Assembly: GCF_000183135.1 (NCBI RefSeq)
Contig: NC_014734.1
Location: 2,356,001-2,420,000, forward strand
Direction of reading: 5' to 3'
Length of the DNA: 64,000 nt
Source: Paludibacter propionicigenes WB4
GTDB taxonomy: Bacteria > Bacteroidota > Bacteroidia > Bacteroidales > Paludibacteraceae
Part shown: positions 4,138-40,395 of the stretch, one piece after another
Layout: each line of letters begins with the position of its first letter
Position numbering within the stretch: position 1 is the stretch's first letter
The notes under the pieces: generated by a model
What the model saw: only the letters and a program-made list of their open reading frames with translations
Database searches by the model: none
Told to the model about the DNA's origin: nothing
Position numbers and translations under genes: made by a program

Positions 4138-4209
4138 GGTCCTGTAGTTCAATGGATAGAACAAGTGTTTCCTAAACACTAGATCCGGGTTCGATTCCCG
4201 GCGGGACTA
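4138..4209 (+). tRNA. tRNA-Arg (anticodon CCT)
   Basis: A full cloverleaf can be folded. The acceptor stem pairs GGTCCTG with CGGGACT, the D stem GTTC with GAAC, the anticodon stem AGTGT with ACACT around loop TTCCTAA (anticodon CCT, reading AGG), and the T stem CCGGG with CCCGG. The discriminator is A4209 and no CCA is encoded, as is common in this phylum. Its last 14 bases are part of the 16-bp direct repeat found again at 40608-40623, so this gene is the integration target of the island, and the tRNA stays intact because the element brings its own copy of the 3' end. Confidence 0.95.
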
Positions 4210-4211
4210 CT
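4196..4211. repeat. attL: 16-bp direct repeat at the tRNA-Arg 3' end
   Basis: TCCCGGCGGGACTACT is identical to 40608-40623. It covers the 3' half of the T stem, the acceptor strand and two bases beyond the tRNA, a common attachment site for tyrosine-recombinase islands. Confidence 0.9.
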
Positions 4212-4906: not shown

Positions 4907-5074
4907 TATAATAAATGATTTTCTACTTATTCATATACGAGTGTATTTTTTCTCTATGAATAGCATTGAAAAATTGTGCGGAAGCCTGCAAAAAGACTGT
5001 GCAAGCCCTGCACTTCGACAAGCTCAGTGAGCTGGAGAGAAAGGGCGGGGATTTTTGGCGGCTGGGGACATTGC

Positions 5075-5128
5075 CCTGCGGAGCTGCCCGTAATTATCTT
5101 ACAGGCAACGCCTGACTGCTTTCTATGT
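5075..5128. repeat. 54-bp repeat, copy A (flanks the 370-aa gene)
   Basis: It starts CCCTGCGGAGCT, contains AATTATCTT and the small palindrome CAGGC-AAC-GCCTG, and ends CTGCTTTCTATG. A similar copy in the same orientation is at 6572-6625. The two copies bracket the gene at 5208-6320. The sequence just upstream (4976-5070) is GC-richer than its surroundings and holds an open frame of 66 codons that I do not believe is coding. Confidence 0.6.
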
Positions 5129-5207: not shown

Positions 5208-6320
5208 TCATTTACTTTGCCATGTGAGCGTATCTCTATTTGCACCATCTAAAGCTAAGTCGTAGGCTTCAATAAATGGATCGTACCAATCTGCTTTTTT
5301 ACGCGCCCATTCAATCCATTTTTGTAGTTCTTCTGTTAGCGAATTATTTTTTATTGCATTATCTTCAAACGCAGTTATATAATTTCTTAACTCTAGGGCT
5401 TTCTGATAACGACTTGCCAGTCGTAGTGTTGATTTGAAATCTGACAATTCTTTTTCTTTTATCGCTACAAGCTGCTTTGTTAGTTCCTCTTTACGGCGTT
5501 GTTCAGCCCATCTTTTTTCTCTTTCTTCCCGTTCAACTTTCTTATTGTGTGCTATTACTTCGAGTTTTGCGATTATGTCCAATAGTTTATCTTCTAAAAG
5601 AATAGTGCTGTCGGTCCATTCTCTTTGGGGGTACATGTAAAAATACTTTAGACATAGTTTTCCATTATAATGTAATCTTGAATTAAGCCAATTGCCATCT
5701 TGATACTTAATTCTGTTTGATTTTTCAACTATTGATAGTTGAAGCTCTTCACCGTAAATTACAGCAAAACTATTGCCAGCCTTTCCTATTACAGAATGTC
5801 CACAAGCATTCATCGTATTGACAAATTGCTCCATTAAACGCAAAGCACGTGACAAAAGAGCTTTTGATACGTTTATTGCAAAGGTATTGCCTTTTTTATA
5901 GTCCCAATTTTTATGGTCTTTCAGATTGTAGTATTCTTTGGTTATGTTAATTATTGGGTCAACAATCTGGGGACTCGTTTTCTTCGTATCGTTAGACTTG
6001 AGCTTCTTTGAAATTTCAGCTTTGTTTTTGTTTAGTGCGGTTGTATCTTTTGAAAAATACTCTTCAGTATCTTGATCGGTTCTTAACCATAGGGATATTT
6101 CTTGTTTGGCTTTGGTCGATTCCCAAAAATTCTCTTTTGTAACCGATTTGCCGAATTTCAGTTTAGACCAATAGCCATTGGGTGGAATGGTAATAGCCAT
6201 TTCGTTGCAAACTTCACGTAGACAAGTGTAGGAAATGTTGTATTTTCTTGAAATGGCGGATAAAGGTTCAGCCCACACAAGGTCGTAGAATTCTTTTCTT
6301 GAAAAAGTAGTTTTTGCCAT
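5208..6320 (-). CDS. Hypothetical protein with N-terminal HTH-like domain, mobile-element type
   Basis: 370 aa, function not known to me. Residues 5-55 (SRKEFYDLVW..PLS.ISRKY.IS...LREVC..M.I..PP.GYW.KLKFGK) are a pattern I have seen at the N-terminus of uncharacterised proteins on mobile elements; it reads like a helix-turn-helix followed by a basic GYW..K tail. The middle (about 150-250) is globular. Residues about 258-300 are a charged helix (KKVEREEREKRWAEQRRKEE), probably a coiled coil. It stands alone on the minus strand between two copies of a 54-bp repeat, downstream of the restriction operon and separated from rhuM by 320 bp. A DNA-binding role is plausible but not shown. Confidence 0.7.
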   Translation of the reverse strand: MAKTTFSRKEFYDLVWAEPLSAISRKYNISYTCLREVCNEMAITIPPNGYWSKLKFGKSVTKENFWESTKAKQEISLWLRTDQDTEEYFSKDTTALNKNKAEISKKLKSNDTKKTSPQIVDPIINITKEYYNLKDHKNWDYKKGNTFAINVSKALLSRALRLMEQFVNTMNACGHSVIGKAGNSFAVIYGEELQLSIVEKSNRIKYQDGNWLNSRLHYNGKLCLKYFYMYPQREWTDSTILLEDKLLDIIAKLEVIAHNKKVEREEREKRWAEQRRKEELTKQLVAIKEKELSDFKSTLRLASRYQKALELRNYITAFEDNAIKNNSLTEELQKWIEWARKKADWYDPFIEAYDLALDGANRDTLTWQSK

Positions 6321-6640
6321 AACAAATAGTTTTTTGGCTCCTCTTTTAATCTCTCTTATAATTATCGTCGTAATACATTTACTATCAATATGTAATATGT
6401 ATTTGCATCCTTAAAACTTTCCTTTCTTCTCTTATTTCTCTTTTAAATTTCTTTTAATTTGTCATCCAAGTATTATCATGTGTACGTTTTGCTATTTTTT
6501 ACACACGTTTGAAGTGACATGGGTAATTTATTAAGCTTTTATACCGCTGACATTAACAAACAAGTGATTTACCCTGCGGAGCTCTCAGGAATTATCTTTC
6601 AGGCTTGCCTGACCGCTTTTCAATGCAAGATTTAAAGATT
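6321..6640. other. Intergenic gap with repeat copy B
   Basis: 320 bp without a credible gene. The first 250 bp are AT-rich and featureless to me. The end carries repeat copy B (6572-6625) immediately downstream of the rhuM stop. Confidence 0.6.
6572..6625. repeat. 54-bp repeat, copy B
   Basis: It starts CCCTGCGGAGCT, then AATTATCTTTCAGGC-TT-GCCTGAC, ending CGCTTTTCAATG. It matches 5075-5128 along its length with a few substitutions and indels. It ends 15 bp from the rhuM stop codon, so the palindromic part could also act in mRNA 3'-end formation. Confidence 0.6.
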
Positions 6641-7645
6641 TTATTTTGAAAGTTTCTTTACTTCCTTTTCAAAATCACTTACAAAATTTTTGTCCTGGAT
6701 TACTCTGAATTTTTCGTATTCTTTTGTCGCTAGTTTAATCGCTATTTCATGTTTTACTTTACCGGAATCTTTGAGGATATCATATTCATTGAATTGCAGG
6801 AATGCATCTAAACGTTTTATCCAATCTTCCATTTTCATAGGGATTTGGCGGGCAGCCTGATTCTCTGCGAAATCTAAATACATTGAAACAATTCGCTCTA
6901 ATGATTTTATTTCTGACTCTTTCAAATAGTTTTTAGCGACACTTATATCTCCTTTTAAAACTTTGCCATTTGGAGAGTTTTTCCATGTTTGCAAACCCAT
7001 GTTTGGTTTTAAGGCATTAGCCCTGTGAGCAATTAATTCCGCAGCTGTTTCTCCAGTAATAGCCCAATGAAGTTTGTTCTGTACAGTTTTAAAAAAATTC
7101 TGCGTAATGTCGGCTGTTTTATTATAATCGATACTGCACTGTTCATAAATGTCAGTAATTTTGAGGTAGAAACGTCTTTCACTTGCTCGTATTTCCCTAA
7201 TGCGCTCTAAGAGTTCATCAAAATAGTCTTTACCAAATAACGCCCCTTGTTTTAAGCGCTCATCATCCATTACAAAACCCTTAATAATAAACTCACGTAA
7301 GGTCTTGGTAGCCCAAATGCGAAACTGTGTTGCCTGTAATGAATTTACACGATAACCAACTGCTATTATTGCATCTAGATTATAAAAGTCAAGATTTCTA
7401 GCAACCTGCCTTTCACCTTCCTGTTGAACTATTTCCATTTTGGAAACAGTTGCGTCTTTATTTAATTCTCCTGTCTCAAATATATTATTCAGGTGCTTAC
7501 TTATCGCAGGAACATCAACACCTAATAGTTCAGCCATACGTTTTTGAGTCAGCCAAAAAGTTTCATCATTATAAAGTACTTCTATCTTTACATTACCGTC
7601 TGGAGTGCTATAAAAAATTATATCATTTTTTTGAGAATTTTCCAT
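6641..7645 (-). CDS. rhuM: RhuM family protein
   Basis: 334 aa. The start (IIFYSTPDGNVKIEVLYNDETFWLTQKRMAELLGV, cited here in parts) and the blocks KHLNNIF..GEL, VARNLDFYNLDAIIAVGYRVNS and ATQFRIWATKTL are the hallmark of the RhuM family, first noted in a Salmonella pathogenicity island. The N-terminal half resembles phage anti-repressor (Bro/KilA-N-like) DNA-binding modules. The biochemical role is unsettled. RhuM genes are commonly found beside type I restriction loci, and here it is the last gene of that operon, 77 bp after the GIY-YIG gene. Members are 300-350 aa, so it appears full length. Confidence 0.85.
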   Translation of the reverse strand: MENSQKNDIIFYSTPDGNVKIEVLYNDETFWLTQKRMAELLGVDVPAISKHLNNIFETGELNKDATVSKMEIVQQEGERQVARNLDFYNLDAIIAVGYRVNSLQATQFRIWATKTLREFIIKGFVMDDERLKQGALFGKDYFDELLERIREIRASERRFYLKITDIYEQCSIDYNKTADITQNFFKTVQNKLHWAITGETAAELIAHRANALKPNMGLQTWKNSPNGKVLKGDISVAKNYLKESEIKSLERIVSMYLDFAENQAARQIPMKMEDWIKRLDAFLQFNEYDILKDSGKVKHEIAIKLATKEYEKFRVIQDKNFVSDFEKEVKKLSK

Positions 7646-7721
7646 ATAGAATTTATTTTAATATTATCGGTATTTGCCATCTGTCTTTATTTTCTTTGCA
7701 AACTAAGGGAATAGGAAATTC

Positions 7722-8369
7722 CTATTCCTCACTACTCACATAGGTTTCATTATAAATATCCATAAGGTTCTTGCCGTTATACGTCCAGTAGGATGTTGGT
7801 TGAAGAGCATGCTCAATACCCAATAACTCTTTGGTGATAGCGGTTAAGGATTTTTTTACACCGCAATAACTTATTTTCTTAGCATCGCAGACTTCTACTA
7901 TATATGTTTCGTCATCCCTATTGAATTCTAGTCTTGCGCCTAATGGTATTCCCATTTCAATGTAATTCAGCGGTGGACGACGGGTTATTTTCATTTTCTT
8001 TCCGGCTGCTTTATCCACTTCGGTTAAATCGTTGTTAATTTCTTCTACAATTTCATTCGTTATGTCTTTACTTTTATCCAGTAGCTGAAGTATGGCTATA
8101 GCCTGTTCCGGGTTTATCTCAAAGAACTCACGCTGGTTATGAATACGATAAGGGTGAAAAGCGATATGTAATGCTTTCTCAACTTTTGCGGTTTCGGTAA
8201 CTTTACATGCATATTCACACTCAAAAGGCACAGGTACACTGGTATTGAATAACTCTTTGAGACGTACATCTACATTTTCCTTGTTGGTCATTCCTATTTT
8301 TACCAATCCTGGCATGGCGGGATTTGTAAGAACATAGACTATTCCGTAGTTGATTGTTTTTGGGGACAT
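7722..8369 (-). CDS. GIY-YIG nuclease family protein (T5orf172/MUG113-like) with C-terminal extension
   Basis: 215 aa. Residues 8-95 show the T5orf172/MUG113 variant of the GIY-YIG fold: GIVYVLTNPAMPGLVKIGMT supplies the two signature strands, followed by a conserved R in VDVRLKELF, EKALH and the REFFEI glutamate strand. The C-terminal ~80 residues (PLGARLEFNRDDETYIVEV..., S.TAITKELLGI, SYWTYNGKNLMDIYNETY) resemble the small domain (DUF4357-like) found in restriction-associated proteins. GIY-YIG enzymes nick or cut DNA; this subgroup is poorly characterised. It lies 46 bp downstream of the 515-aa nuclease gene, same strand, probably co-transcribed with the hsd genes. Confidence 0.75.
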   Translation of the reverse strand: MSPKTINYGIVYVLTNPAMPGLVKIGMTNKENVDVRLKELFNTSVPVPFECEYACKVTETAKVEKALHIAFHPYRIHNQREFFEINPEQAIAILQLLDKSKDITNEIVEEINNDLTEVDKAAGKKMKITRRPPLNYIEMGIPLGARLEFNRDDETYIVEVCDAKKISYCGVKKSLTAITKELLGIEHALQPTSYWTYNGKNLMDIYNETYVSSEE

Positions 8370-8415
8370 GGGATTCTAGCTTGCTAATTTAACTACTATA
8401 TTTTTAATTTTCACA

Positions 8416-9963
8416 TTAGTAGTCTTGAGATAAATAGTTTTTCTGCACATCAAAGTATCTGTACCACACAGGGATATTAAACTTAGTACGAATCATATTT
8501 AAATACGCAATTACTTCTGCATTAGGTTTATCATATGATACAACAATCAGTTTTTGTGCATTCTCAATATTGGGAAAATAGGAGTATTCCATAATTTGAC
8601 CAAGTGCTTTTCTTATGCTTAATTTAGCATTGTCTGTTTTTATCTCAAAATAATGCCAAATACCATCTTGAGTAATTGCCTTAATATCAACCCTATTTCG
8701 TTCAATATATACTTGCTTATATTCTTTTGATTGATTTAAATAATCATTAATTGCATTTTGCATTATATCATGATATGGATCATAAGAGCATTCTACTTTG
8801 TATGTTTTGTTTCTTGTATCTGTATTTTTCTTATTTCCAACAAAGTCATCTTGATTATCTGGAATAATTAATTGCGCTTCATGATCATAATTAAACTCAG
8901 TTTCTTTAGGTAGAAGTTTAAATCTGTTAGTAGATATATTAATATCATCAGATCCTAAATAAATATATTCTTCAAATTCTTCAACATCATCAAACTTGAA
9001 TTTAATATTAAAGAAGATTTCAGGGGATAAAGCTATTTCTGAATTCCAGATTCCCTCTTTAAATTCAACTTGTTTTTTCATATCATCCATCCAACCTCTC
9101 TGTTGATATTTCAAGAACTCTGCTTCGGAATCTTGTTTAGAGATACAAACTACGTTTCTTATAATACCTACTAATAGCTTATCATTATTAGGATCAATGG
9201 TATATAGGTGTAAGTTGAAAGTTTTATTATAATGTTTATCTGATTTTAAATTTAAGGGCTGAACAAAAGCATAATGAAAGCCGTCATCTGAAACCTTTGA
9301 ACGGTCAAATAACCATTCTTCGTGTCCAAATCCAAAAGTTCTTTCATAAGAGTTTGGGTCTTTTGATTTTCCATCAATACCACTTGGAAAACACCATTTT
9401 TTGTCATTCCAACAAATTCGAACAATCTTATCTACTTGCCCTCTATCTTTTTGCAGCATCCGGCTATCTATTATCTTTGTTGAATAACGAATGAATTCAT
9501 TTTCAGAGATAGGGTAAATATCAGCAGGATTATATTTATTTATACACTTATCAATTATAGGTTTATCAATGTTCAAAAATTCATTCAAATGACTTAAATA
9601 ATTCTTTCCATGATACTCCTTATACCACTTATTTTTTGTTTTGTGCTTGTAAAATCCTCCAATTTCTCTAACAATTGATTCAAAAAATTTGGCATTGTCT
9701 TTAGAATCTTGCGCTGAAAACTCTATCCAACACTTTCTTTCTATAGTTACAAAAAAACCAATACTATAAACTTTTTCTTTCCAGTCACTTCCATTCCAGA
9801 AAGCAACTTGTAAATAGTAATCATTACCCAAAAACCAATATCCTTTATCTTTTCTGCCTTTTTTATTATTTTTTCTTGACAAAAAATATAGTTCTGGATT
9901 ACTCTCTCTTCTTTTGAGTAGAAAGTCCAATATTTTATTGTGTATTGAAAGGATATTACTCAT
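8416..9963 (-). CDS. Restriction-associated protein with C-terminal PD-(D/E)XK nuclease domain
   Basis: 515 aa. The C-terminal ~100 residues read as a restriction-endonuclease-like fold: RNRVDIKAI supplies the Asp, HYFEIKTD the E-x-K pair, and ALGQIMEY a Q-x3-Y-type helix, followed by LIVVSYDKP. I do not recognise the N-terminal 400 residues as a named family. They include an FGFGHEEWLFD block near residue 212 followed by FHYAFVQPLN, a pattern I loosely associate with PUA-like or base-recognition modules in McrA/McrB-type restriction proteins. It starts 12 bp downstream of hsdM and is surely co-transcribed with it. A modification-dependent or accessory nuclease is the best guess. Confidence 0.7.
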   Translation of the reverse strand: MSNILSIHNKILDFLLKRRESNPELYFLSRKNNKKGRKDKGYWFLGNDYYLQVAFWNGSDWKEKVYSIGFFVTIERKCWIEFSAQDSKDNAKFFESIVREIGGFYKHKTKNKWYKEYHGKNYLSHLNEFLNIDKPIIDKCINKYNPADIYPISENEFIRYSTKIIDSRMLQKDRGQVDKIVRICWNDKKWCFPSGIDGKSKDPNSYERTFGFGHEEWLFDRSKVSDDGFHYAFVQPLNLKSDKHYNKTFNLHLYTIDPNNDKLLVGIIRNVVCISKQDSEAEFLKYQQRGWMDDMKKQVEFKEGIWNSEIALSPEIFFNIKFKFDDVEEFEEYIYLGSDDINISTNRFKLLPKETEFNYDHEAQLIIPDNQDDFVGNKKNTDTRNKTYKVECSYDPYHDIMQNAINDYLNQSKEYKQVYIERNRVDIKAITQDGIWHYFEIKTDNAKLSIRKALGQIMEYSYFPNIENAQKLIVVSYDKPNAEVIAYLNMIRTKFNIPVWYRYFDVQKNYLSQDY

Positions 9964-9975
9964 ATAGATATTTTT

Positions 9976-11616
9976 TTATGGCAACTCCTTCAACCCCAAC
10001 TCCCTCAAAAATCCATTATGCGTTTCGGTTGCTTTTCTGATTTTTTCTTCCAAATCCACCAACGTTTCATTTACTGCGTTTAAATCTATTTCTTTGGCAG
10101 TAACCGCTGTACTTACATAACGGGAGATATTCAGGTTGTAATCGTTTTTGACGATTTCTTCCATAGATACTCTACGAGAGTAGCGTTCTTCTTCAGTGCG
10201 GAACTGATAAGTTTCTACAATCTTTCGTATATCGTTGGGTTCTCCTTCTTCACCGTCGCGCAGACGGTTTTGACGTTTGCCTTTTTCAAAATACTCACTG
10301 GCATTGATAAACAGCACATCATCAAACTTCTTACATTTTTTCAGTACCAGAATACATACGGGAATACCCGTAGAGAAGAACAGGTTGGACGGTAAACCGA
10401 TGACCGTATCTATATTACCATCTTTGAGCAACTTGGTACGGATACGTTCTTCCGCTCCACCACGGAATAAAACACCGTGTGGCAAGATAATAGCCATTGT
10501 ACCTTCTTGGGCTAAGAAATGGAAACCATGCAACAAGAAAGCAAAGTCGGCCGCTGACTTGGGGGCAAGCCCGTAGTTTTTGAAACGAAAATCCTCGCCC
10601 ATCGCTTCGCTTGGTTCCCAACGCAGACTAAAAGGAGGATTAGCCACTACTGCATCGAATTCCATTTTCTTAGCGGGATTCATCTCGTTTAGTATATCCC
10701 AGTCGTTTAGTAAGGTATCTCCATGATGAATATGAAACTCCGTATCTTTTACACCATGCAGCAACATATTCATACGGGCAAGGTTATAGGTAGTAATGTT
10801 CTTTTCCTGACCGTAGATTTTACCTATACCATGTTTGCCTAACTGATTGCGCACATTCAATAACAGCGAACCCGAACCACAAGCTAAATCCATTACCTTA
10901 TCTAACTTCTTCTTTTTTCCCGCAGCCGGGTTTTGACTATCAAGTGTAACAATAGACGAAAGAATGGTAGATATTTGTTGCGGGGTATAAAACTCACCTG
11001 CTTTTTTACCTGAATCAGCAGCAAACTGACCAATCAGGAATTCATAAGCATCTCCGAGTATATCCGTATCTTTTGAAAACTTGACAATACCCTGTTCTAT
11101 TTTGGTTATGATATTACATAGTTCAGCATTACGCTCTTCATATGTTTTTCCCAGTTTATCAGAATTCAGATTGATTTCAGAGAACAATCCTTGAAATGTA
11201 CTTTCAAAAGATTCATTCTCGATATAATCAAAGCCTTTTTTAAGCGTATGCAACAATTCTCCATTTTGTGTACGAGCCATTTCATAAATACTACTCCACA
11301 GATATTTAGGTTGAATAACATAATGAACCTTACGACGCATTTGTTTTTCAAACTCTTCTATATCGGCAGCATTTTCATTATACCATATTTCGAGAGCAGA
11401 AGTGGCTTTCAGTTTCTTTAAAATATCAGAAGTAACCTCCGGATAATCCTGACCCAATTCCTTTTTAGCTACATCCTCGTAATTATCGGATAAATAGCGC
11501 ATAAACAGGAATGAAAGCATATAATCTCTGAAATTATCTGCATTCATCGAGCCTCGTAATTGGTTAGCTATATCCCAAAGGGTTTTTCCTAATTGTTGTT
11601 GTTCTAATGCGGTCAT
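9976..11616 (-). CDS. hsdM: Type I restriction-modification methyltransferase subunit HsdM
   Basis: 546 aa, full length for the family. The N-terminal helical HsdM_N domain (residues 5-160) precedes the N6-adenine methylase domain: FYTP at 209-212, the SAM-binding motif I DLACGSGS at 243-250 and the catalytic NPPF at 326-329. With HsdS it methylates adenine in a bipartite target; with HsdR it forms the restriction complex. It lies 20 bp downstream of the PrrC-like gene and 12 bp upstream of the 515-aa nuclease gene, so the operon order is hsdR-hsdS-prrC-like-hsdM. All expected motifs are intact, so methylation should be active. Confidence 0.97.
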   Translation of the reverse strand: MTALEQQQLGKTLWDIANQLRGSMNADNFRDYMLSFLFMRYLSDNYEDVAKKELGQDYPEVTSDILKKLKATSALEIWYNENAADIEEFEKQMRRKVHYVIQPKYLWSSIYEMARTQNGELLHTLKKGFDYIENESFESTFQGLFSEINLNSDKLGKTYEERNAELCNIITKIEQGIVKFSKDTDILGDAYEFLIGQFAADSGKKAGEFYTPQQISTILSSIVTLDSQNPAAGKKKKLDKVMDLACGSGSLLLNVRNQLGKHGIGKIYGQEKNITTYNLARMNMLLHGVKDTEFHIHHGDTLLNDWDILNEMNPAKKMEFDAVVANPPFSLRWEPSEAMGEDFRFKNYGLAPKSAADFAFLLHGFHFLAQEGTMAIILPHGVLFRGGAEERIRTKLLKDGNIDTVIGLPSNLFFSTGIPVCILVLKKCKKFDDVLFINASEYFEKGKRQNRLRDGEEGEPNDIRKIVETYQFRTEEERYSRRVSMEEIVKNDYNLNISRYVSTAVTAKEIDLNAVNETLVDLEEKIRKATETHNGFLRELGLKELP

Positions 11617-11636
11617 TTTAGACGTATTCTTTATTT

Positions 11637-12743
11637 TTATTCTGAAAATAACTTAGGGTTAAATTTGTAATTGTTCATGAAATCTTTCAAAACCCTTTTG
11701 AAATACTCCTTATTCTCATCTATCATTATTACGGGCTCAAAAAGCGAGTAGTTTCCGTGACTGAGTATGTTGACTATTCGGGTATGTACAACCCCCTCCG
11801 GGTCATCTTCCTGTTTCTTGATACATTCAGAAAAGCCACTAAATCCATGAAACGTTGCCGTTTTTTCGAGTATACTTCTCAATATATTGAAATGATAAGT
11901 ATATAAATTGCCACTATCAGCTGCTTTTTTCAAATCTTTCAGCAGTGAGACATGGTGAAAGAATGGTGTATCTGTTGTGTCCTTTAGCATATATGAATTT
12001 TCAACGACACCTTTGCTTAGAAAAAACTTTAATGCATTGCCCATTTCATTATACATGACATTAAAGAAAAGTGTATGGTGAGTTGAAATAACTGCCTTTA
12101 CCTTGTTTTCAGGCTTTTTAAGCATCTGTGCTAAATGACTGGCAACTGCAATGGCATTATTATCATCCAACGATGAAATAGGGTCATCAATGTAAATATA
12201 TTTAACCCATTTATAATCTTCTTGTTGGTCAATAGCTAATTGTGCTATTGCAAGAAAAAAGCACCAAATAAATATATTTTCTTCTCCGCGGGATATTTTG
12301 ATAAATTCTTTATTTTGAGGCGAACCATCAACTTTTATCTCTCTAATAAAATTTACAGCCCAATACTCTTTCTCTTCCTTATCTTTATAATCGTAGTCAA
12401 TAAGGAAGTTGAAATCTGCATATCGTTGCAAAAGAGGGCGAATCCTACTCTCCATTTCCAAATCTTCTAATCCCGAGAAAAAACGAGATTCTTTGTTGAT
12501 TAGCAAAACGCGCTTACTATCACTATCCAAATCATTATCCCACGAAAATAAGTCTTCAGTAAAAGCATTATAATATAAAGTATCAGGAATACTATCCATC
12601 TTTCCTGCATCTTTAAATGCCATGGATAAACGTGTTTTACCCGTTCCATTATAGGCATAAAGCAATGTATTCTTCTTTCCAGTGGAACGCAGATAACCAA
12701 CTAACTCGTCCAGATTTTCAAGTGAAACAATCGTACTATTCAT
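11637..12743 (-). CDS. prrC: PrrC-like anticodon nuclease (ABC-type ATPase plus tRNase domain)
   Basis: 368 aa, close to the ~396 aa of E. coli PrrC. The N-terminal ATPase has Walker A AYNGTGKT (30-37), the family block YYNAFTEDLF.WDNDL (58-72), an ABC-like signature ISRGEE (150-155), Walker B YIYIDD (183-187), the D-loop SSLDD (190-194) and H-loop histidines (222-223). The C-terminal region carries R289, E293 and H329, matching the R-x3-E...H catalytic triad of PrrC (R320/E324/H356). PrrC stays silent while bound to its type I restriction complex and cuts the tRNA-Lys anticodon loop when a phage inhibits restriction. Its place between hsdS and hsdM supports the same guard role; the tRNA target here is not determinable. 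Confidence 0.85.
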   Translation of the reverse strand: MNSTIVSLENLDELVGYLRSTGKKNTLLYAYNGTGKTRLSMAFKDAGKMDSIPDTLYYNAFTEDLFSWDNDLDSDSKRVLLINKESRFFSGLEDLEMESRIRPLLQRYADFNFLIDYDYKDKEEKEYWAVNFIREIKVDGSPQNKEFIKISRGEENIFIWCFFLAIAQLAIDQQEDYKWVKYIYIDDPISSLDDNNAIAVASHLAQMLKKPENKVKAVISTHHTLFFNVMYNEMGNALKFFLSKGVVENSYMLKDTTDTPFFHHVSLLKDLKKAADSGNLYTYHFNILRSILEKTATFHGFSGFSECIKKQEDDPEGVVHTRIVNILSHGNYSLFEPVIMIDENKEYFKRVLKDFMNNYKFNPKLFSE

Positions 12744-12746
12744 AAC

Positions 12747-14048
12747 TTATTCATTTATCACCGGAAACAACCCCTGCATCAACCCCTTCTTATGCTCCTT
12801 TAACCCTTCTATCTTCTGTACTTGCGCTGCTATTTCATCATCTATGGAAGAGAGAAAGTTGGCGATTTTTTGTTGCTCGTTTGGTTGAGGAACGATAAAC
12901 TTATATTTAAGCAAATTACTCCCATTTATAGAATTAATTGTAGCACCTAAATCCGCTTTAACTTGATTGCTGTATAAATCAGTTTGAAATAATTGGAATA
13001 TAAAACTTGGTTGATATGCTCTAAATACAGTCATAAAAGCCCCATGTGTAGCAAATGGAATATCTTTAGGTATTATTGCATTCTTTCCAATCAATGATTT
13101 CGAACCATTTCTCACACAAATCAAGATGTCATTTGGCTGAATTAGATTTGCGCCTTTTACTTCAGTAGTCACATAAACACAATCATTTAAATCGATTAGA
13201 CCATTTTGAATATTAGAAGACCTTAGGACCAATAAGCCCTCATTTCTTATATCATTAGGACTATATGTTAAGCCCCCAATCAAATTTCCCAACTTATTCA
13301 ACGTCGTCTCCACCCACTCCCCATCACCTTCAAACTCCTTAAACCGTAATTTAGGCACTGTTTCTCCTTCAGCAGGAAATAGCTGCTGCATCAGTCCTTT
13401 TTTATGGTCTTTCAGTGCTTCCAATTTATAGGTATGGGCGGCTATCAATTCATCCAAAGAGGAAAGACATGAGGCGATTTTTTGTTGCTCATCTTTATTC
13501 TCAGGATAGTATACGCTTATGTTTGATAATCTTGTTGCAGAAATTCCTAAAACTTTAGCTCCTTGAGATTCTTTTTGTATTTGAGTACGAATCGAGGATG
13601 ATTTAAATAAATGTCCTCCAAAACCAGTTCTCAGTTTTGAGTCTTTTTGTCTTGCCAATAAAGTATGCAAACCCGATAATATTTTTTCATTATTTAAGTA
13701 TATAATTTCAATGCTTTTACCAACATCTGCCAAGTCTTCAGAGGCATCAGCAAAAATTATATCACCTTCTTTACAGAAAAATTCCTCCTTAATTTTCTCG
13801 ACAGTAATATCTAAATTGACAAACGGAACTATTTCTTTTGTTATATCAAAATGTGAGTTGAATTTTGTATGTATATCTCCATAATGAATATTCTTAATAT
13901 TTCCGTCTCTATAATTTAAATTATCTCTTGTAAATGAGTTTGTTCCCAAAAAAGAATATATTTCTGAAAATGGTTCTAAAATCCACTCTTTAGAAAATTG
14001 AAACTCAGGAAACCTCAACTTCGGCACTATCTTATTATCTTTATTCAT
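12747..14048 (-). CDS. hsdS: Type I restriction specificity subunit HsdS (two target-recognition domains)
   Basis: 433 aa with the typical internal duplication: target-recognition domain 1 (about residues 10-180), a central conserved helix (EQQKIASCLSSLDELI...LKDHKKGLMQQLFP), target-recognition domain 2 (about 235-395) and a C-terminal conserved helix of nearly the same sequence (EQQKIANFLSSIDDEI...LKEHKKGLMQGLFP). PKLRF.EF opens each half. The two TRDs read the two halves of the bipartite target and the helices set the spacing. It overlaps hsdR by 8 bp upstream and is 3 bp from the PrrC-like gene downstream. The target sequence cannot be predicted here. Confidence 0.95.
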   Translation of the reverse strand: MNKDNKIVPKLRFPEFQFSKEWILEPFSEIYSFLGTNSFTRDNLNYRDGNIKNIHYGDIHTKFNSHFDITKEIVPFVNLDITVEKIKEEFFCKEGDIIFADASEDLADVGKSIEIIYLNNEKILSGLHTLLARQKDSKLRTGFGGHLFKSSSIRTQIQKESQGAKVLGISATRLSNISVYYPENKDEQQKIASCLSSLDELIAAHTYKLEALKDHKKGLMQQLFPAEGETVPKLRFKEFEGDGEWVETTLNKLGNLIGGLTYSPNDIRNEGLLVLRSSNIQNGLIDLNDCVYVTTEVKGANLIQPNDILICVRNGSKSLIGKNAIIPKDIPFATHGAFMTVFRAYQPSFIFQLFQTDLYSNQVKADLGATINSINGSNLLKYKFIVPQPNEQQKIANFLSSIDDEIAAQVQKIEGLKEHKKGLMQGLFPVINE

Positions 14049-17046
14049 ACGCTTTTAATCCTGATATTTCGTGTCCCTGTGCTAATTTTTTAAGCAGAGG
14101 TACTAAATCTTCCATGAGTGCCAGTTCTTTTTTGGTGCGGTCTTTCCACCCTAATTCCAATGGTGCTAACAAATCACTGAGTTGTTCGCCATCGAATATC
14201 ATACGGGAGATAATACCCTCTACAAAGGCTTTCAATGCTTCTGTTTCTAATCCGTGTTTTTGCGCGGTTTCGTTTATTTGTTTGGCAAACTTTTCTGCTT
14301 TAAAGATTTGGTAACCATCCCGAATTTCCTTTTCCGACAGTCCTTTGCCTTCTTCCAGTGTTTTAATATAGGCGGCAATATCATCCCGTTCATCCATCAG
14401 GTTTGCACTCGAACTAAGCAGGTTAATCAACTGCTCCCGACTCATCTTTTGTTTCGAAGGCTTATTCTGGGTGAACTTGGAAATCAAGCCCATGATATAA
14501 TCGTAGTCGATAATGGCCGAAGCAAACAGCACAAACTCGAAATCGATCTCTTGAATGGCCGGTTCGGCTTTGTCGCCTTCTTTGTCACGTTTTTCTTTCA
14601 GTTTTTTTGCTGTTTCCAGATACGAGCTTCGGAATTCCAGCAATTGGTCGGTAGGCAAAATATGCTCTATCAGCTCTTTTTGTTCGGGCTGCAAATCGGT
14701 ATATTGGTCGAGCTGCGTTTTCAGTCGTTGCACTTCCTTAAAGCGGTTGATAAAGTTGATCCTTGCCGTATCGCCTTTCAGGTTATACACTTCCTGCGGA
14801 GCACAGGTTAAATCGCTTTTTTGCATAAAGTCCTGTAAAGCAGCTACCGCTTCTTCAAATTTCTCTATCACTTTCGGTGCAGGATCCACCAACCATATTT
14901 CTTTGGCCTTGTTTTCATCTTTCTCGCCCGAGAACAATGCAATAGCTGTATCTACCGCTTCCTGTTGCTGACGGAAATCAAGGATATTACCATAAGGCTT
15001 GCTATCGTTTAATATACGATTGGTACGCGAAAAAGCCTGAATCAGTCCGTGATATTTCAGGTTTTTATCTACATAAAGCGTATTCAGAAACTTGGAATCG
15101 AAACCTGTGAGCAACATATCCACTACAATCACTATATCAATTTTATTCCGGTGCGGATAATCTTTATTGCTGTATTTTTGGTCTTTGATGCGTTGCTGCA
15201 CATCCTGATAATACAAATCGAACTCGCTGATAGTATGATTTGTACCGTATTGCGCATTGTAATCGGCAATAATAGCCATCAGAGCTTGTTTTTTGCCTTC
15301 GGGGTCTTGCTTGTTATCTTCCTTTTCGTTGATTAAATCTTCCTGTAACTGTTTGATATCAGCCAGATTCTTATCGTTTTTATTTTCAGTGTCGTTCGCT
15401 AATGCCTGTGTTGGTGGCGAAAACACACAAGCTATATTCATCGGCACATAGTCTGCATCTTCCGCTTGTTTTTGTGCCTGAAAAGCTTTAAACCGCTGAT
15501 AATAATCAATGGCATCGTTTATCGATTGTGTAGCAAACAGCGCATTAAACCGTCGGTGGTTGGTGGCGCCTTCATGCTTTTTCAAAATCTCGTTTACAAT
15601 AGCTTGTTTGGCTATACTTTCGCCCGGTTTGGGTGCATTCTCACCCTGTGGTTTAAAGTAATCGATATGAAAACGCAACACATTCTTGTCCTCAATAGCA
15701 TGGGTAATGGTGTAAGCGTGTAATTCCTGTTGGAAAATGTTTTCTGTAGTTTTATACGAAGCATATTCACCCTCACGTATCAGTTGGGTAGAGTTCTGTT
15801 CAAAAATAGGTGTACCCGTAAAACCGAACAATTGTGAGTTGGGAAAGAATTCTTTAATGGCTTTATGATTATCGCCAAACTGCGAACGATGACATTCATC
15901 AAAGATAAACACCATACGACTATCGCGAAGCGGTTCAAGTCGTTCCTTGTAATTTGCCCGGTTTTCGGGATCAAGAGCAATACCGAGCTTTTGAATAGTG
16001 GTTACTATTACCTTATCGGCATAATCTTCGGACAGCATACGGCGCACTAAACTTTCGGTATTTGTATTGGCTTCCACACAACCATCCTGAAACTTATTAA
16101 ATTCTTCGCGGGTCTGACGGTCAAGATCTTTTCTATCCACCACAAACAAGCATTTTTCAATATCCGGATTATCTTTCAGCAGGGTAGAGGCTTTAAACGA
16201 AGTCAGTGTTTTTCCGCTACCTGTAGTATGCCAGATATAACCGTTGCCACGGTTTTCGTGAATACAATCCACAATGGCTTTTACCGCATAAATCTGGTAT
16301 GGGCGCATAACCAACAGCTTTTGTTCGTTAGCTACCAGCACCATGTATTTATTAATCATTTCGCCCAGCGTACACTTTGCAAGAAACTTTTCAGAGAAAT
16401 CGTGCAGGTGAGCAATCTTCTTATTATTTACATCAGCCAACTGATAAACAGGCAGAAATTGTTCGTCGGCATTAAACTGAAAATGCTGATTATTGTTATT
16501 GGCAAAATACTGTGTATTACCACGGTTGCTCACAATAAACAACTGCATAAAACAAAGCAGCGTATTGGTGTAACCATTACCTGCATCGTTTTTATAATCC
16601 ACAATTTGCTGCATGGCTCGTCGTGGGCTTATATCCAAAGCCTTTAACTCTATCTGCACCACAGGTAAACCGTTTATCAGCAAAATCACATCGTACCGCT
16701 GATGACTGTTATTGGTGTTGATACGCAGTTGATTAATTACCTCATAATCGTTTTTACACCAGTCTTTGATATTGACCAGCGTATAATGAAGCGGTGTTCC
16801 ATCTTCCCGAAAGAAAACTTCCCTTGCACGCAATCTTTTAGAAGAAGCAAATACATCCGGACTTACAATTTCGTCTAACAGACGTTTGAATTCCGCATCA
16901 GTAAGATGCACACGGTTAAGTGCTTCAAATTTCTGTCTGAAATTCAATTCAAGAGCATCCCTGTCCCGAATATCAGGGCGGTAAGTGTATTTGAGGTCTT
17001 TGAGTTTCTCAATCAGACCGAGTTCTATTTCGTTTTCTTTTGTCAT
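14041..17046 (-). CDS. hsdR: Type I restriction endonuclease subunit HsdR
   Basis: 1001 aa, normal size. The N-terminal nuclease domain has D119 (RYDVILLING), the E-x-K pair E133/K135 (VQIELKAL) and a Q-x3-Y motif at 147-151 (QIVDY). The SF2 helicase core has Walker A TTGSGKT (275-281), motif II DECHRSQFG and motif III FGFTGTP, with RTNRIL in the second RecA lobe. A long helical C-terminus binds the methylase core. The complex translocates DNA and cuts remotely when the target is unmethylated. It is the first gene of the operon, starting from the ATG at 17046, and all catalytic motifs are intact. Confidence 0.97.
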   Translation of the reverse strand: MTKENEIELGLIEKLKDLKYTYRPDIRDRDALELNFRQKFEALNRVHLTDAEFKRLLDEIVSPDVFASSKRLRAREVFFREDGTPLHYTLVNIKDWCKNDYEVINQLRINTNNSHQRYDVILLINGLPVVQIELKALDISPRRAMQQIVDYKNDAGNGYTNTLLCFMQLFIVSNRGNTQYFANNNNQHFQFNADEQFLPVYQLADVNNKKIAHLHDFSEKFLAKCTLGEMINKYMVLVANEQKLLVMRPYQIYAVKAIVDCIHENRGNGYIWHTTGSGKTLTSFKASTLLKDNPDIEKCLFVVDRKDLDRQTREEFNKFQDGCVEANTNTESLVRRMLSEDYADKVIVTTIQKLGIALDPENRANYKERLEPLRDSRMVFIFDECHRSQFGDNHKAIKEFFPNSQLFGFTGTPIFEQNSTQLIREGEYASYKTTENIFQQELHAYTITHAIEDKNVLRFHIDYFKPQGENAPKPGESIAKQAIVNEILKKHEGATNHRRFNALFATQSINDAIDYYQRFKAFQAQKQAEDADYVPMNIACVFSPPTQALANDTENKNDKNLADIKQLQEDLINEKEDNKQDPEGKKQALMAIIADYNAQYGTNHTISEFDLYYQDVQQRIKDQKYSNKDYPHRNKIDIVIVVDMLLTGFDSKFLNTLYVDKNLKYHGLIQAFSRTNRILNDSKPYGNILDFRQQQEAVDTAIALFSGEKDENKAKEIWLVDPAPKVIEKFEEAVAALQDFMQKSDLTCAPQEVYNLKGDTARINFINRFKEVQRLKTQLDQYTDLQPEQKELIEHILPTDQLLEFRSSYLETAKKLKEKRDKEGDKAEPAIQEIDFEFVLFASAIIDYDYIMGLISKFTQNKPSKQKMSREQLINLLSSSANLMDERDDIAAYIKTLEEGKGLSEKEIRDGYQIFKAEKFAKQINETAQKHGLETEALKAFVEGIISRMIFDGEQLSDLLAPLELGWKDRTKKELALMEDLVPLLKKLAQGHEISGLKAYE

Positions 17047-17914: not shown

Positions 17915-19126
17915 TTACATGTTATCTAAATACTTTCGTTTATCTTCCGCTATAAACTCTGATAATTCAAAAAGTGAGGGCGTAGATAAAATACGTCTGA
18001 TTGATTTCTTTGCATTGCTGGCCTTATCTCTGCACTTGTGAGTGCGTTTATATCCAACTACCTTAGCACTACAAAATAACTGACCATTAGTTGGGTGATG
18101 AATAATCTCTCCACAAACTTTACATCGTTTTACTTCAACCATCCCTGAATCTTCAACTGCAACAAAATACTCATTCATCTTAATGGGTAATTCGTCGCAT
18201 TCATCATTTAAGCTAGTTTCTCGCAAAACGGTTAATCTGTCGCATGTCGAATCTTTGTAATCATTAGGGAAAACGGTTAATTTGTTCCACGTTTTAATAA
18301 TACAATCTGCTTTTGAAGCATCTCTCAGTTCACAGCATTTAGCAACTAGTAAGTTTAAAATCTCTGTTTGAATGGTCGACTTGCTGTGGTTTTTTACAAA
18401 GGCATTACATTTCGCCCTTTCTCTACCATATCTACTTCGATTCTCTCTAGTGCCATTGTATAGCTTTGTCCAAAACAAAGGATTAATGTATTGTAGATAG
18501 CTATTTTGTTCCTTGTCTGAAAGCATATCTTGTTCTGCTTTTGATAGATTAATTATCAAACAATCTTTTATCGTTTCTTCTAATAATATTTGAAATTGCT
18601 CCCAAACAAACACGTTCAACAAATCTGACAACACTTTGCAATGAACATGTTTTTTCAAGTATTCCATCCTAATCACCTTAATCTCTATCCTTAAAATATT
18701 CTCAAATTTGTATGGCTCGATTTTACATTGGTAGGATTTATTGTATATTTTGATTGTGTAATTCTGATATTCAAATCTTCGTCCAGTTTTGTCAGTAAGT
18801 CCTGAGCAGCTCTTATGCAATATAAGGCTTTCTAAGACAATATTAGGGTCGAATGGTAGCTTTATGTTTACTCCAAACTCAAATCCGTTCAGCATCGTAA
18901 TATCCGGGTTCAATCCAATGCTTAAATATAAATTATTCAAGGTGGATTTAAAATCACTCAAAAAATAATCATCTGCATTGTGCAGTCCTTTGTTTGCAAA
19001 TTTGTGGATGCTCCCATTCAAAGTATGACCATTGTATGTATTTCGAACAAAACGTAAGCCATTCAAATTGTGGACATTGTTAGCCTGATTCGTTTTTACG
19101 TTCCAGCTTTTAAGATAGTCAATCAT
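17915..19126 (-). CDS. Replication-initiator-like protein with C-terminal zinc-finger motif
   Basis: 403 aa, no confident family. The start (MIDYL..W, residues 20-60 with HKFANKGLHNADDYFLSDF) and the middle resemble phage/plasmid-type replication initiation proteins found on small Bacteroidota integrative elements. The C-terminus (about 333-371) has CKVCGEIIHH, then FCSAKVVGYKRTHKC, a C-x2-C...C...C pattern likely to bind zinc. It follows the excisionase-like gene by 41 bp on the same strand, the usual pairing of recombination and replication genes on such elements. If it is a Rep, it would replicate the excised circle. Evidence for that is positional plus weak resemblance. Confidence 0.5.
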   Translation of the reverse strand: MIDYLKSWNVKTNQANNVHNLNGLRFVRNTYNGHTLNGSIHKFANKGLHNADDYFLSDFKSTLNNLYLSIGLNPDITMLNGFEFGVNIKLPFDPNIVLESLILHKSCSGLTDKTGRRFEYQNYTIKIYNKSYQCKIEPYKFENILRIEIKVIRMEYLKKHVHCKVLSDLLNVFVWEQFQILLEETIKDCLIINLSKAEQDMLSDKEQNSYLQYINPLFWTKLYNGTRENRSRYGRERAKCNAFVKNHSKSTIQTEILNLLVAKCCELRDASKADCIIKTWNKLTVFPNDYKDSTCDRLTVLRETSLNDECDELPIKMNEYFVAVEDSGMVEVKRCKVCGEIIHHPTNGQLFCSAKVVGYKRTHKCRDKASNAKKSIRRILSTPSLFELSEFIAEDKRKYLDNM

Positions 19127-19167
19127 ACCTTTAGGGTATTGATTCCATTACTAAGAATTTTCATGAC

Positions 19168-19491
19168 TTAAGCCCTTCGATATTTAAGAGTCTCAACATC
19201 TTTTAGCGATGCATATACATCGGCTCTTTTATACCTTATACGTGTTCCAATACGTTGGGCTGGAATTATACCATTTTTGGTCCACTCATTTAATGTAACT
19301 AAGGAAATGCCGTAAATCTGGGCGGTTTCTTTACGAGTGATCAACTCGGGGAGTGGTTCTGATTGGGTTAAACCTGAAAAGATTTTTTCTACTTCGTTTC
19401 TTACTGTTGTCCTGATACTGTCTTGCAACTGTTCAAAACTGATTCCGCTAAAAATAATTTGTTGCTGAGGTAAAATGATTTTGTTTGGCAT
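19168..19491 (-). CDS. Excisionase-type helix-turn-helix protein
   Basis: 107 aa. The C-terminal 60 residues (ELITRKETAQIYGISLVTLNEW..NGIIPAQRIGTRIRYKRADVYASL) are the winged HTH_17/excisionase module related to MerR, in which the recognition helix and the RIG.R.RY wing contact DNA. Such proteins act as recombination directionality factors or as activators of element genes. On many Bacteroidota integrative elements this gene sits just before a replication or mobilization gene, as here. It is 19 kb from the integrase of the island, although the two are usually close, which agrees with later insertion of material between them. Confidence 0.8.
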   Translation of the reverse strand: MPNKIILPQQQIIFSGISFEQLQDSIRTTVRNEVEKIFSGLTQSEPLPELITRKETAQIYGISLVTLNEWTKNGIIPAQRIGTRIRYKRADVYASLKDVETLKYRRA

Positions 19492-39018: not shown

Positions 39019-40395
39019 CTATTTAGCGATTAGCATAGGATTAAAAAACTTGTGTGATTGCATTTTTAAAGCGTTATCCTTTGCACTCATTTTGATGTAT
39101 CTCATAAAAGCTGATTCTGTCTTGTGTCCGGTAATTTTCATTATTGAAATACTTGGCATATCCATTAAGAAAGCGTTTGTTGCAAATGAACGGCGAGCAG
39201 TGTGGCTCGTTACGAGGTTATATTTTTCGGTGGTTTCAGAGACTTTAAAACCACCCTTTGTTGATTCCATAGTAATGGGTTCTTTTATTCCCGCTAATTT
39301 CGCAACTTCTTTCAAAAACTCATTGAATTTCTGATTTGTTGGGAGTTTTGGGAGTTTATAATCATACTTTCTGAAAATTTCTCTTACAATTGGGTGGATC
39401 GGGACAACTACTTTCTGATTCGTTTTTTGAGTAGTAATGTTTATTGTATTGTCAGATGTTATATTCTCTTTTTTGAGCTGTGCGAGGTCGGAAAATCTTA
39501 ACCCTGTATAGCTACCAATAAGGAATAAATCTCTCACACGTTCCAGATAAAGGGGCAAACCTGACTTATTGTATATCGATGTCAATTCAGACTCATTCAG
39601 ATAGATAGAAAATGATTCCTCATTTGGTTTTTTGAATGATTTCTTTTTGTAGTCGGTCGGTACACTTATTCCTCTGTCATTTGCAGCACTCAAAAAGGTT
39701 TTCAATATCTTTATTCGTGTGCCAATGGTGTTTACTGATAGTCCTGAAACCGTTTTAGATTTTCCGGCTTTAGTCTTTATAGTTTTAGGTTTTGTCAGGT
39801 AGTCGACAAAAGAGTTATAAAAATCAATATCGAGTCGGTCGAATGTCAAAGTAGTTTTTTTGTCATTTTGATATTCTAACAAATTATTTTTTAGTGTTTT
39901 ATAGCTCTTAATCGTGTTTTCTTTCCGGGTTGCGGTCTTAATAAAGAAGTCGATAAACGGAAATAGTTCTTTAGGGGTTTCGCCCTGTTCAGTGGTTACT
40001 TTGGTAGGTTTGTATATCTTATCTAATTCAGTACGGAGTTTATCGTGAGATGGTACATTTCCATTCTCTGAAAGGGTTCTTATTAATTCCTTTGCAGTAC
40101 GTTCAAAGGTCTCAATTTCTGAATTAATAGCTTCGTAATTCTTTCGTGCCGATTCTTTGACCGCTTGAATACTAATATCAAACGTTTCAGGGTTCGCCCA
40201 CTTGTTAGATTCCTTTGCCCGGTTTAGTTCCTTATTCCATAAATCCGGGAACATTGCAATATCTGTATAGTATTTCAGGGGCAAATACTTCTTTGCTCCA
40301 TTGTCAATTCTATATAGTCCGTAGTTGATTAAACAAAAAAGATTTGTTTCATTTTTTGTCTTTGGGTTGGCAAGGTAAAAGCTAATCTTTGCCAT
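39019..40395 (-). CDS. Tyrosine recombinase / integrase of the island
   Basis: 458 aa, usual size for Bacteroidota site-specific integrases. There is an N-terminal arm-binding domain (1-100), a core-binding SAM-like domain (about 140-250) and a catalytic domain with R300 (SYTGLRFSDL), H398 and R401 (HTARRSF), H424 (ITGHKT) and the nucleophile Y433 (AFMRYIK). All catalytic residues are present. The gene starts about 210 bp inside attR and reads inward. It should recombine the 16-bp core at tRNA-Arg with the element copy, giving insertion or excision of the whole 36.4-kb region. Confidence 0.97.
   Translation of the reverse strand: MAKISFYLANPKTKNETNLFCLINYGLYRIDNGAKKYLPLKYYTDIAMFPDLWNKELNRAKESNKWANPETFDISIQAVKESARKNYEAINSEIETFERTAKELIRTLSENGNVPSHDKLRTELDKIYKPTKVTTEQGETPKELFPFIDFFIKTATRKENTIKSYKTLKNNLLEYQNDKKTTLTFDRLDIDFYNSFVDYLTKPKTIKTKAGKSKTVSGLSVNTIGTRIKILKTFLSAANDRGISVPTDYKKKSFKKPNEESFSIYLNESELTSIYNKSGLPLYLERVRDLFLIGSYTGLRFSDLAQLKKENITSDNTINITTQKTNQKVVVPIHPIVREIFRKYDYKLPKLPTNQKFNEFLKEVAKLAGIKEPITMESTKGGFKVSETTEKYNLVTSHTARRSFATNAFLMDMPSISIMKITGHKTESAFMRYIKMSAKDNALKMQSHKFFNPMLIAK

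Follow-up and report, generated by a model that had tools for sequence, protein, structure and literature searches.

In type I restriction-modification (R-M) systems of the EcoprrI type, the R-M complex keeps the anticodon nuclease PrrC silent until a phage disables that complex, whereupon PrrC cleaves tRNA. Neighborhoods that join PrrC, R-M genes, and RhuM were described in 2013 and read as multilevel defense (Anantharaman et al. 2013, PMC3710099). In V. cholerae, the TgvAB gene pair, embedded in a type I operon, restricts phages whose DNA is hypermodified, and its protection against Tevenvirinae does not depend on HsdR (PMC11411939); the RRDM island of E. coli is a type I operon of seven open reading frames (ORFs) that carries DarTG2 as an extra defense (PMC12255303). 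EVE-PD(D/E)XK and EVE-HNH are type IV modification-dependent enzymes that pair a reader with an exchangeable cutter (PMC7641849; these four reports are cited from excerpts). Here, we describe a 64,000-nucleotide stretch of the Paludibacter propionicigenes WB4 genome (the window; contig NC_014734.1, positions 2,356,001 to 2,420,000, from a genome that is a single contig of 3.69 Mb), in which a type I R-M system with an embedded prrC is followed on the same strand by three further genes, the first encoding a 515-aa nuclease.

The interpretation that we favor, at slightly below an even chance, is that this run unites a type I R-M system and PrrC with three add-on defense genes and that the 515-aa protein is an autonomous endonuclease, probably modification dependent or gated by a phage signal, that complements HsdR in the way TgvAB does. 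The run comprises seven ORFs between positions 6641 and 17046 of the window (coordinates without a locus name are window positions, and all genes of the run lie on the minus strand), each with an ATG start and an open frame, in the order hsdR-hsdS-prrC-hsdM-515 aa-GIY-YIG-rhuM. From hsdR to rhuM, the spacing is an 8-bp overlap and then gaps of 3, 20, 12, 46, and 76 bp. A sequence-only reading of this DNA had placed the same seven genes at the same positions; its first five spacings were exact, and its last was given as 77 bp.

The 515-aa protein (8416..9963) has an N-M-C architecture, read from an alignment of relatives (alignment A4) and a structure model (m5051c8697ca9; mean pLDDT, 90.1). 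In the C module (residues about 380 to 515; 8419..8826), D426, E440, K442, and Q456 are invariant in 58 of 58 rows of alignment A4, which were chosen for complete single-frame matches out of 81 possible (80 loci plus the window), and structure comparison confirmed the PD-(D/E)XK fold. Invariant residues and fold together show that the protein is a PD-(D/E)XK nuclease with intact catalytic residues. At an E value of 0.1, the protein matched nothing in Pfam, NCBIfam, or PHROGs, and no AAA/ABC domain was found in it with Pfam or PADLOC. Its PADLOC match was limited to the N terminus, where residues 1 to 169 aligned with positions 1 to 178 of the 584 in profile PDLC00287 (PtuA1 of Septu; 2.7e-30). 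We conclude that the protein is new: it is unnamed in the reference libraries searched, and the literature was consulted by known names only, which leaves room for a prior description. Since Pfam matches of the 58 family members are weak only, NCBIfam gives none for the window's protein, and PADLOC sees only its N module, such genes may escape current defense annotation.

The M module (residues about 171 to 345; 8929..9453), marked by the motif RICWN..W..PSG..GKS...G.GHEEWL, is a conserved separate domain beside the nuclease, with N186, P193, G213, E216, W217, and Y231 invariant in the 58 rows; in a Vibrio gigantis plasmid protein, it is fused to an HNH domain. Frames of 155 to 236 aa at L092, L093, L094, L096, and L097 match the M part only, and M may thus also exist as a nearly stand-alone domain. 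At L018:8877-9923 and L006:11287-12273, short proteins carry a second type of N-terminal extension fused straight to the PD-(D/E)XK module, without M.

The N module (residues 1 to 170; 9454..9963; alignment A5, a cluster of 6) has a fold that weakly resembles the DNA-binding domain of T4 MotA. Among 395 genomes of the phylum, residues about 172 to 515 occur as stand-alone proteins, and N occurs in 2, the window's and that of L017, where residues 1 to 170 stand at the head of a PtuA encoded downstream of hsdR in a type I operon. In that operon (L017:52-12304), two genes stand between hsdS and hsdR, one GmrSD-like and the other weakly matching defense families, and a Septu PtuA-PtuB pair follows directly after hsdR, its PtuA being the one that bears the N module.

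Relatives of the nuclease core were collected by a profile scan with two peptide patterns over one genome per species (84,980 species), a sample rather than a census; 82 loci were confirmed, 3 of them broken or partial, and 80 were used. They are spread over Bacteroidota, Pseudomonadota, Planctomycetota, Myxococcota, Nitrospirota, and other groups; viral contigs, scanned as well, yielded two. In eight of the 80 (L092 to L098 and L100), the match is confined to the M part, and 18 have <3 kb of flanking DNA on one side. L090 and L099 belong to a single Rhodonellum record, in which two type I operons lie about 12 kb apart with a nuclease core before hsdM in each (L090:3344-4411 and L099:10001-11056); the second core copy is interrupted. 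Among 150 genomes of its family, only the window's own has the 515-aa protein, and 8 of the 395 phylum genomes, window included, match some part of it.

A same-strand hsdM was found at 19 of the 80 core loci, directly downstream (<200 bp) at 16, and was not found in the flanking DNA of the other 61. For the 62 loci with at least 3 kb on both sides, the counts are 17 and 14. The core and hsdM frames overlap or lie ≤12 bp apart in 15 of the 16 directly linked loci, L040 and L069 have the core between hsdS and hsdM, and the neighbor of the core in L047 is an hsdM fragment. By chance, about 0.6 of 80 loci would have hsdM beside the core, a figure taken from genomes of the window's phylum by summing 146 HsdM_N places and assuming 3.4 Mb per genome. 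In several lineages, the nuclease core goes with type I operons, and it sits beside hsdM far more often than chance predicts. In the window, the 515-aa gene directly follows hsdM and is not set between subunit genes; the same is true of the GIY-YIG gene and rhuM, while prrC does lie between. The sequence-only reading had named the occurrence of its two nuclease genes without hsd genes in most genomes as a refutation; for the 515-aa gene this largely holds, with no same-strand hsdM detected at 61 of 80 loci, but the link with hsdM far above chance speaks against the refutation. With 61 loci lacking a detected hsdM, the core looks autonomous and mobile and not like a part that requires HsdR.

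When the type I label is mapped on a tree of the 58 rows, 7 changes are required, of which at least 5 are forced by well-supported branches; any of them may be a gain or a loss. The label covers 14 loci and the window, counting L077 (hsdM 1.2 kb downstream) as type I and L033 and L049 (hsdM 5 and 9 kb away) as other; L072, L087, and L099, all with hsdM beside the core, are left out of the tree. The window's protein groups with those of L022, L021, and L024 (support, 100/95), and no hsd genes were found around these three, with 10 kb available on both sides for L022 and one side cut off for L021 and L024. This placement suggests that the window's type I link arose separately from those of other lineages.

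By family matches, all three type I subunits are present in the window. HsdR (1001 aa; 14041..17046) has nuclease and SWI2/SNF2 motor domains (PF04313, PF18766, PF22679, and PF12008 at 1.8e-69; TIGR00348 above cutoff; PADLOC REase_I, E = 0), HsdS (433 aa; 12747..14048) has the target domains of the specificity subunit (PF01420 in two stretches; PADLOC Specificity_I, 4.9e-104), and HsdM (546 aa; 9976..11616) is the N6-adenine methyltransferase subunit (PF02384 at 2.7e-103 and PF12161; TIGR00497 above cutoff). PrrC (368 aa; 11637..12743), a homolog of the ABC-ATPase/HEPN anticodon nucleases, matches the PADLOC PrrC profile over residues 9 to 363 (5.1e-136). Its ATPase loop G35-K36-T37 and residues R289, E293, and H329 are identical in 24 of 24 aligned proteins. 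The active-site stretch, R289 to H329, is encoded at 11757..11879, and we take R289, E293, and H329 to equal R320, E324, and H356 of E. coli PrrC. The HEPN-type motif R322-x6-H329 is present, R322 being missing from some relatives.

PrrC matches at 1e-20 occur in 23 of the 395 phylum genomes, window included. Among 20 relatives examined (of the 22 besides the window), hsd genes adjoin prrC in all 20, 12 keep the order hsdR-hsdS-prrC-hsdM if small extra genes are disregarded, and a RhuM-like gene is also present in 2. Of 113 plasmid records matched, the 25 listed share 59 to 66% identity with the window's PrrC, and 5 of these 25 are annotated as anticodon nuclease. One Prosthecochloris plasmid carries hsdR-hsdS-prrC and an hsdM frame, followed by an annotated GIY-YIG gene. 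A Hymenobacter plasmid (L145:2412-12246) has, in a row, hsdR, a PDDEXK gene, hsdS, a PrrC-like gene, hsdM, a gene of no assigned family, and a KwaB-like gene. With different genes, or none, after hsdM in other PrrC operons, the stretch 3' of hsdM is variable. We conclude that the hsd/prrC block is of an ordinary, known kind; Pfam, NCBIfam, and PADLOC agree with the type I system and embedded PrrC of the sequence-only reading.

The two genes behind the 515-aa gene are add-ons predicted, from profile matches, to belong to already known PADLOC candidate families. The GIY-YIG (T5orf172/MUG113) protein (215 aa; 7722..8369), assigned with Pfam and alignment A7, matches PDC-S57 over residues 7 to 211 (4.4e-77), and RhuM (334 aa; 6641..7645; PF13310, 2.4e-116) matches PDC-S05 over residues 1 to 332 (9.4e-157). 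According to a 2026 paper that, in the excerpt cited, names PDC-S05 and not PDC-S57, PDC candidates of this kind were found by guilt-by-embedding (PMC12988326). These matches bear out the families that had been named for the two genes and their place with the PD-(D/E)XK gene in one co-oriented run. The GIY-YIG protein is matched in 29 of the 150 family genomes, the window's own included. Among 20 contexts examined by tblastn (of 28 nonwindow matches), hsdM is near the gene in 4 and rhuM in 3. All 4 hsdM-linked contexts fall among the 8 closest relatives (49 to 76% identity), and all 3 rhuM-linked ones fall among distant relatives. The picture for this gene beside hsdM is mixed: half of the closest relatives lie beside type I genes, and 16 of the 20 contexts are without hsdM. 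The Prosthecochloris GIY-YIG protein shares only 16% identity with that of the window (alignment A7) and may thus belong to another family. On the Vibrio tubiashii plasmid pFP31 (L003:10663-13003), about 0.7 kb separates a GIY-YIG gene of the PDC-S57 type from a two-piece nuclease-core match, among small co-oriented genes in a row that resemble a cassette array.

In the working that we propose, HsdM and HsdS would methylate host DNA and HsdR would cut unmethylated DNA, while PrrC, judged by homology, would be kept inactive by the R-M complex and would cleave tRNA once a phage disables that complex. The C module of the 515-aa protein would cut DNA, and M would most likely select the target, probably a modification or structure of phage type that the host lacks. 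The exchangeable N module, common to a Septu PtuA, could be an extra sensor or DNA-binding part. This enzyme would probably act without HsdR or HsdM, because 61 of 80 relatives have no detected same-strand hsdM, and would attack DNA beyond the reach of type I restriction; RhuM and the GIY-YIG protein would be further add-ons. If the nuclease does read phage DNA modification, one run would provide enzymes against unmodified and modified DNA alike, together with a tRNA toxin that acts when the enzyme for unmodified DNA is disarmed, and the recurrent pairing of core and hsdM makes this combined-defense idea testable in one cloned operon. Modified phage DNA had been suggested as a target from sequence, and the analogy with TgvAB makes it plausible (PMC11411939). 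A wider proposal, which strikes us as doubtful on balance, is that the 515-aa protein stands for an unnamed modular endonuclease family with a new type of DNA reader (M), captured by type I operons more than once and with N sensors swapped with other defense systems; it would form a new class of modification-dependent restriction enzyme and a recurrent type I companion.

Several observations weigh against our interpretation. In sequence, the M module matches no known modified-base reader, EVE included, and modification dependence, which we consider probable by analogy, thus rests on architecture. No relative of the GIY-YIG protein, RhuM, or PrrC was found in any of the 80 core loci, and the seven-gene set as such is therefore not conserved there. 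HsdM was the sole methyltransferase sought beside these loci, and others may be present: among 28 hand-chosen same-strand neighbors at loci without hsdM, a set that yields no fraction, there were matches to PtuA, PDC-S06, PDC-S14, type II methyltransferase, cyclase, and AriA, with at least one neighbor matching the PADLOC type II methyltransferase models. Finally, the GC content at third codon positions (GC3) of the 515-aa gene is 0.223, the most AT rich of the seven (0.275 to 0.417 in the other six), which fits a later insertion. Given this value and nearest relatives around which no type I genes were seen, the position of the gene in the window could reflect a single recent capture.

The rival that survives best, which we nevertheless consider improbable, extends this point: the 515-aa, GIY-YIG, and rhuM genes would be passengers in a defense island, recombined in behind hsdM, gaining only a promoter and having no functional link to R-M or to one another. 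The contexts of L022 and of L021 and L024, each of the latter pair truncated on one side, in which no hsd genes were seen, the low GC3, and the variable genes after hsdM in other PrrC operons all speak for it. So does a terminator-like hairpin on the minus strand at 7728-7708, between the GIY-YIG gene and rhuM; such sites are barely commoner in the window than in shuffled sequence (11 found versus 7.5 expected; standard deviation, 3.4). We infer co-expression of the run's genes; with the hairpin ahead of it, rhuM may fall outside the transcript and so may lack even the promoter. Set against a passenger origin are the 16 loci where the core lies directly upstream of hsdM, 15 of them overlapping or within 12 bp, and the tree, where the label has to change at least five times.

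Less probable again is that the 515-aa nuclease is an alternative restriction subunit, a second HsdR that is recruited by HsdM2S or spares the host through HsdM methylation. The recurrent spot of the core directly before hsdM, between hsdS and hsdM (L040 and L069), or directly after hsdM (the window) would suit such a role, as would the open HsdR, HsdS, and HsdM frames beside the gene in the window. However, 61 of the 80 loci show no same-strand hsdM, and no motor domain was matched in the protein with Pfam.

The sequence-only reading had itself proposed a third layer, which we would now phrase as both nucleases being guards released, like PrrC, when HsdR restriction is blocked. PrrC in the same run is a precedent (PMC3710099), and the genes are co-oriented with short gaps, but relatives without hsdM at 61 of 80 core loci and in 16 of 20 GIY-YIG contexts leave a dedicated HsdR-dependent layer unsupported and, in our view, very unlikely. 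Least likely of all is that the 515-aa nuclease is a toxin-type effector that kills the infected host by degrading DNA and is restrained by a neighbor: its fold matches include the effector nucleases Card1, Can2, NucC, and Cap4, and RhuM has been proposed to be a toxin (PMC3710099), but ORF tables inspected by eye revealed no recurrent small partner gene beside the core.

Beyond rhuM, a further same-strand gene of 370 aa (5208-6320), left out of the seven-gene count, begins after 320 bp and gave no credible family match in Pfam, PADLOC, NCBIfam, or PHROGs. It is flanked by a 36-nucleotide direct repeat, 83% identical, at 5071-5106 and 6569-6604. A tRNA-Arg gene lies at 4138-4210, about 2.4 kb beyond rhuM; no att-like repeat of its end was found near the operon. 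A tyrosine recombinase-like ORF, judged by eye and not by a family search, is at 39019-40395. On the 5' side of hsdR (17915-19491) are an HTH_17 helix-turn-helix gene and then a 403-aa protein without a credible family match; an HTH_17 gene with a downstream protein is an arrangement that occurs in small mobile elements.

In comparison with the EcoprrI type of system, the window has the same four core proteins, with PrrC signature residues intact and prrC beside hsdS and hsdM; it differs in its order, hsdR-hsdS-prrC-hsdM, and in the three genes after hsdM. R-M, PrrC, and RhuM occur together as in the neighborhoods of Anantharaman et al., whose excerpted description names no PD-(D/E)XK or GIY-YIG gene (PMC3710099). 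Most of the run is thus of known kinds, and the 515-aa protein is its new part: the union of PrrC, R-M, and RhuM was already described, and the window's GIY-YIG protein and RhuM are near full-length matches to PDC-S57 and PDC-S05, both candidate systems. With RRDM and TgvAB, the window shares extra defense genes within a type I operon, but of other effector families, and its extras besides prrC follow hsdM instead of sitting between subunits. The likeness to Septu PtuA1 (PDLC00287) is confined to the first 169 residues of the 515-aa protein, which, unlike Septu, has no ABC-ATPase domain and no PtuB (HNH) partner and is encoded between hsdM and the GIY-YIG gene. With the EVE enzymes, it shares a layout in which a constant, putative reader domain is joined to an exchangeable PD-(D/E)XK or HNH cutter, but its M module resembles neither EVE nor any other known reader in sequence.

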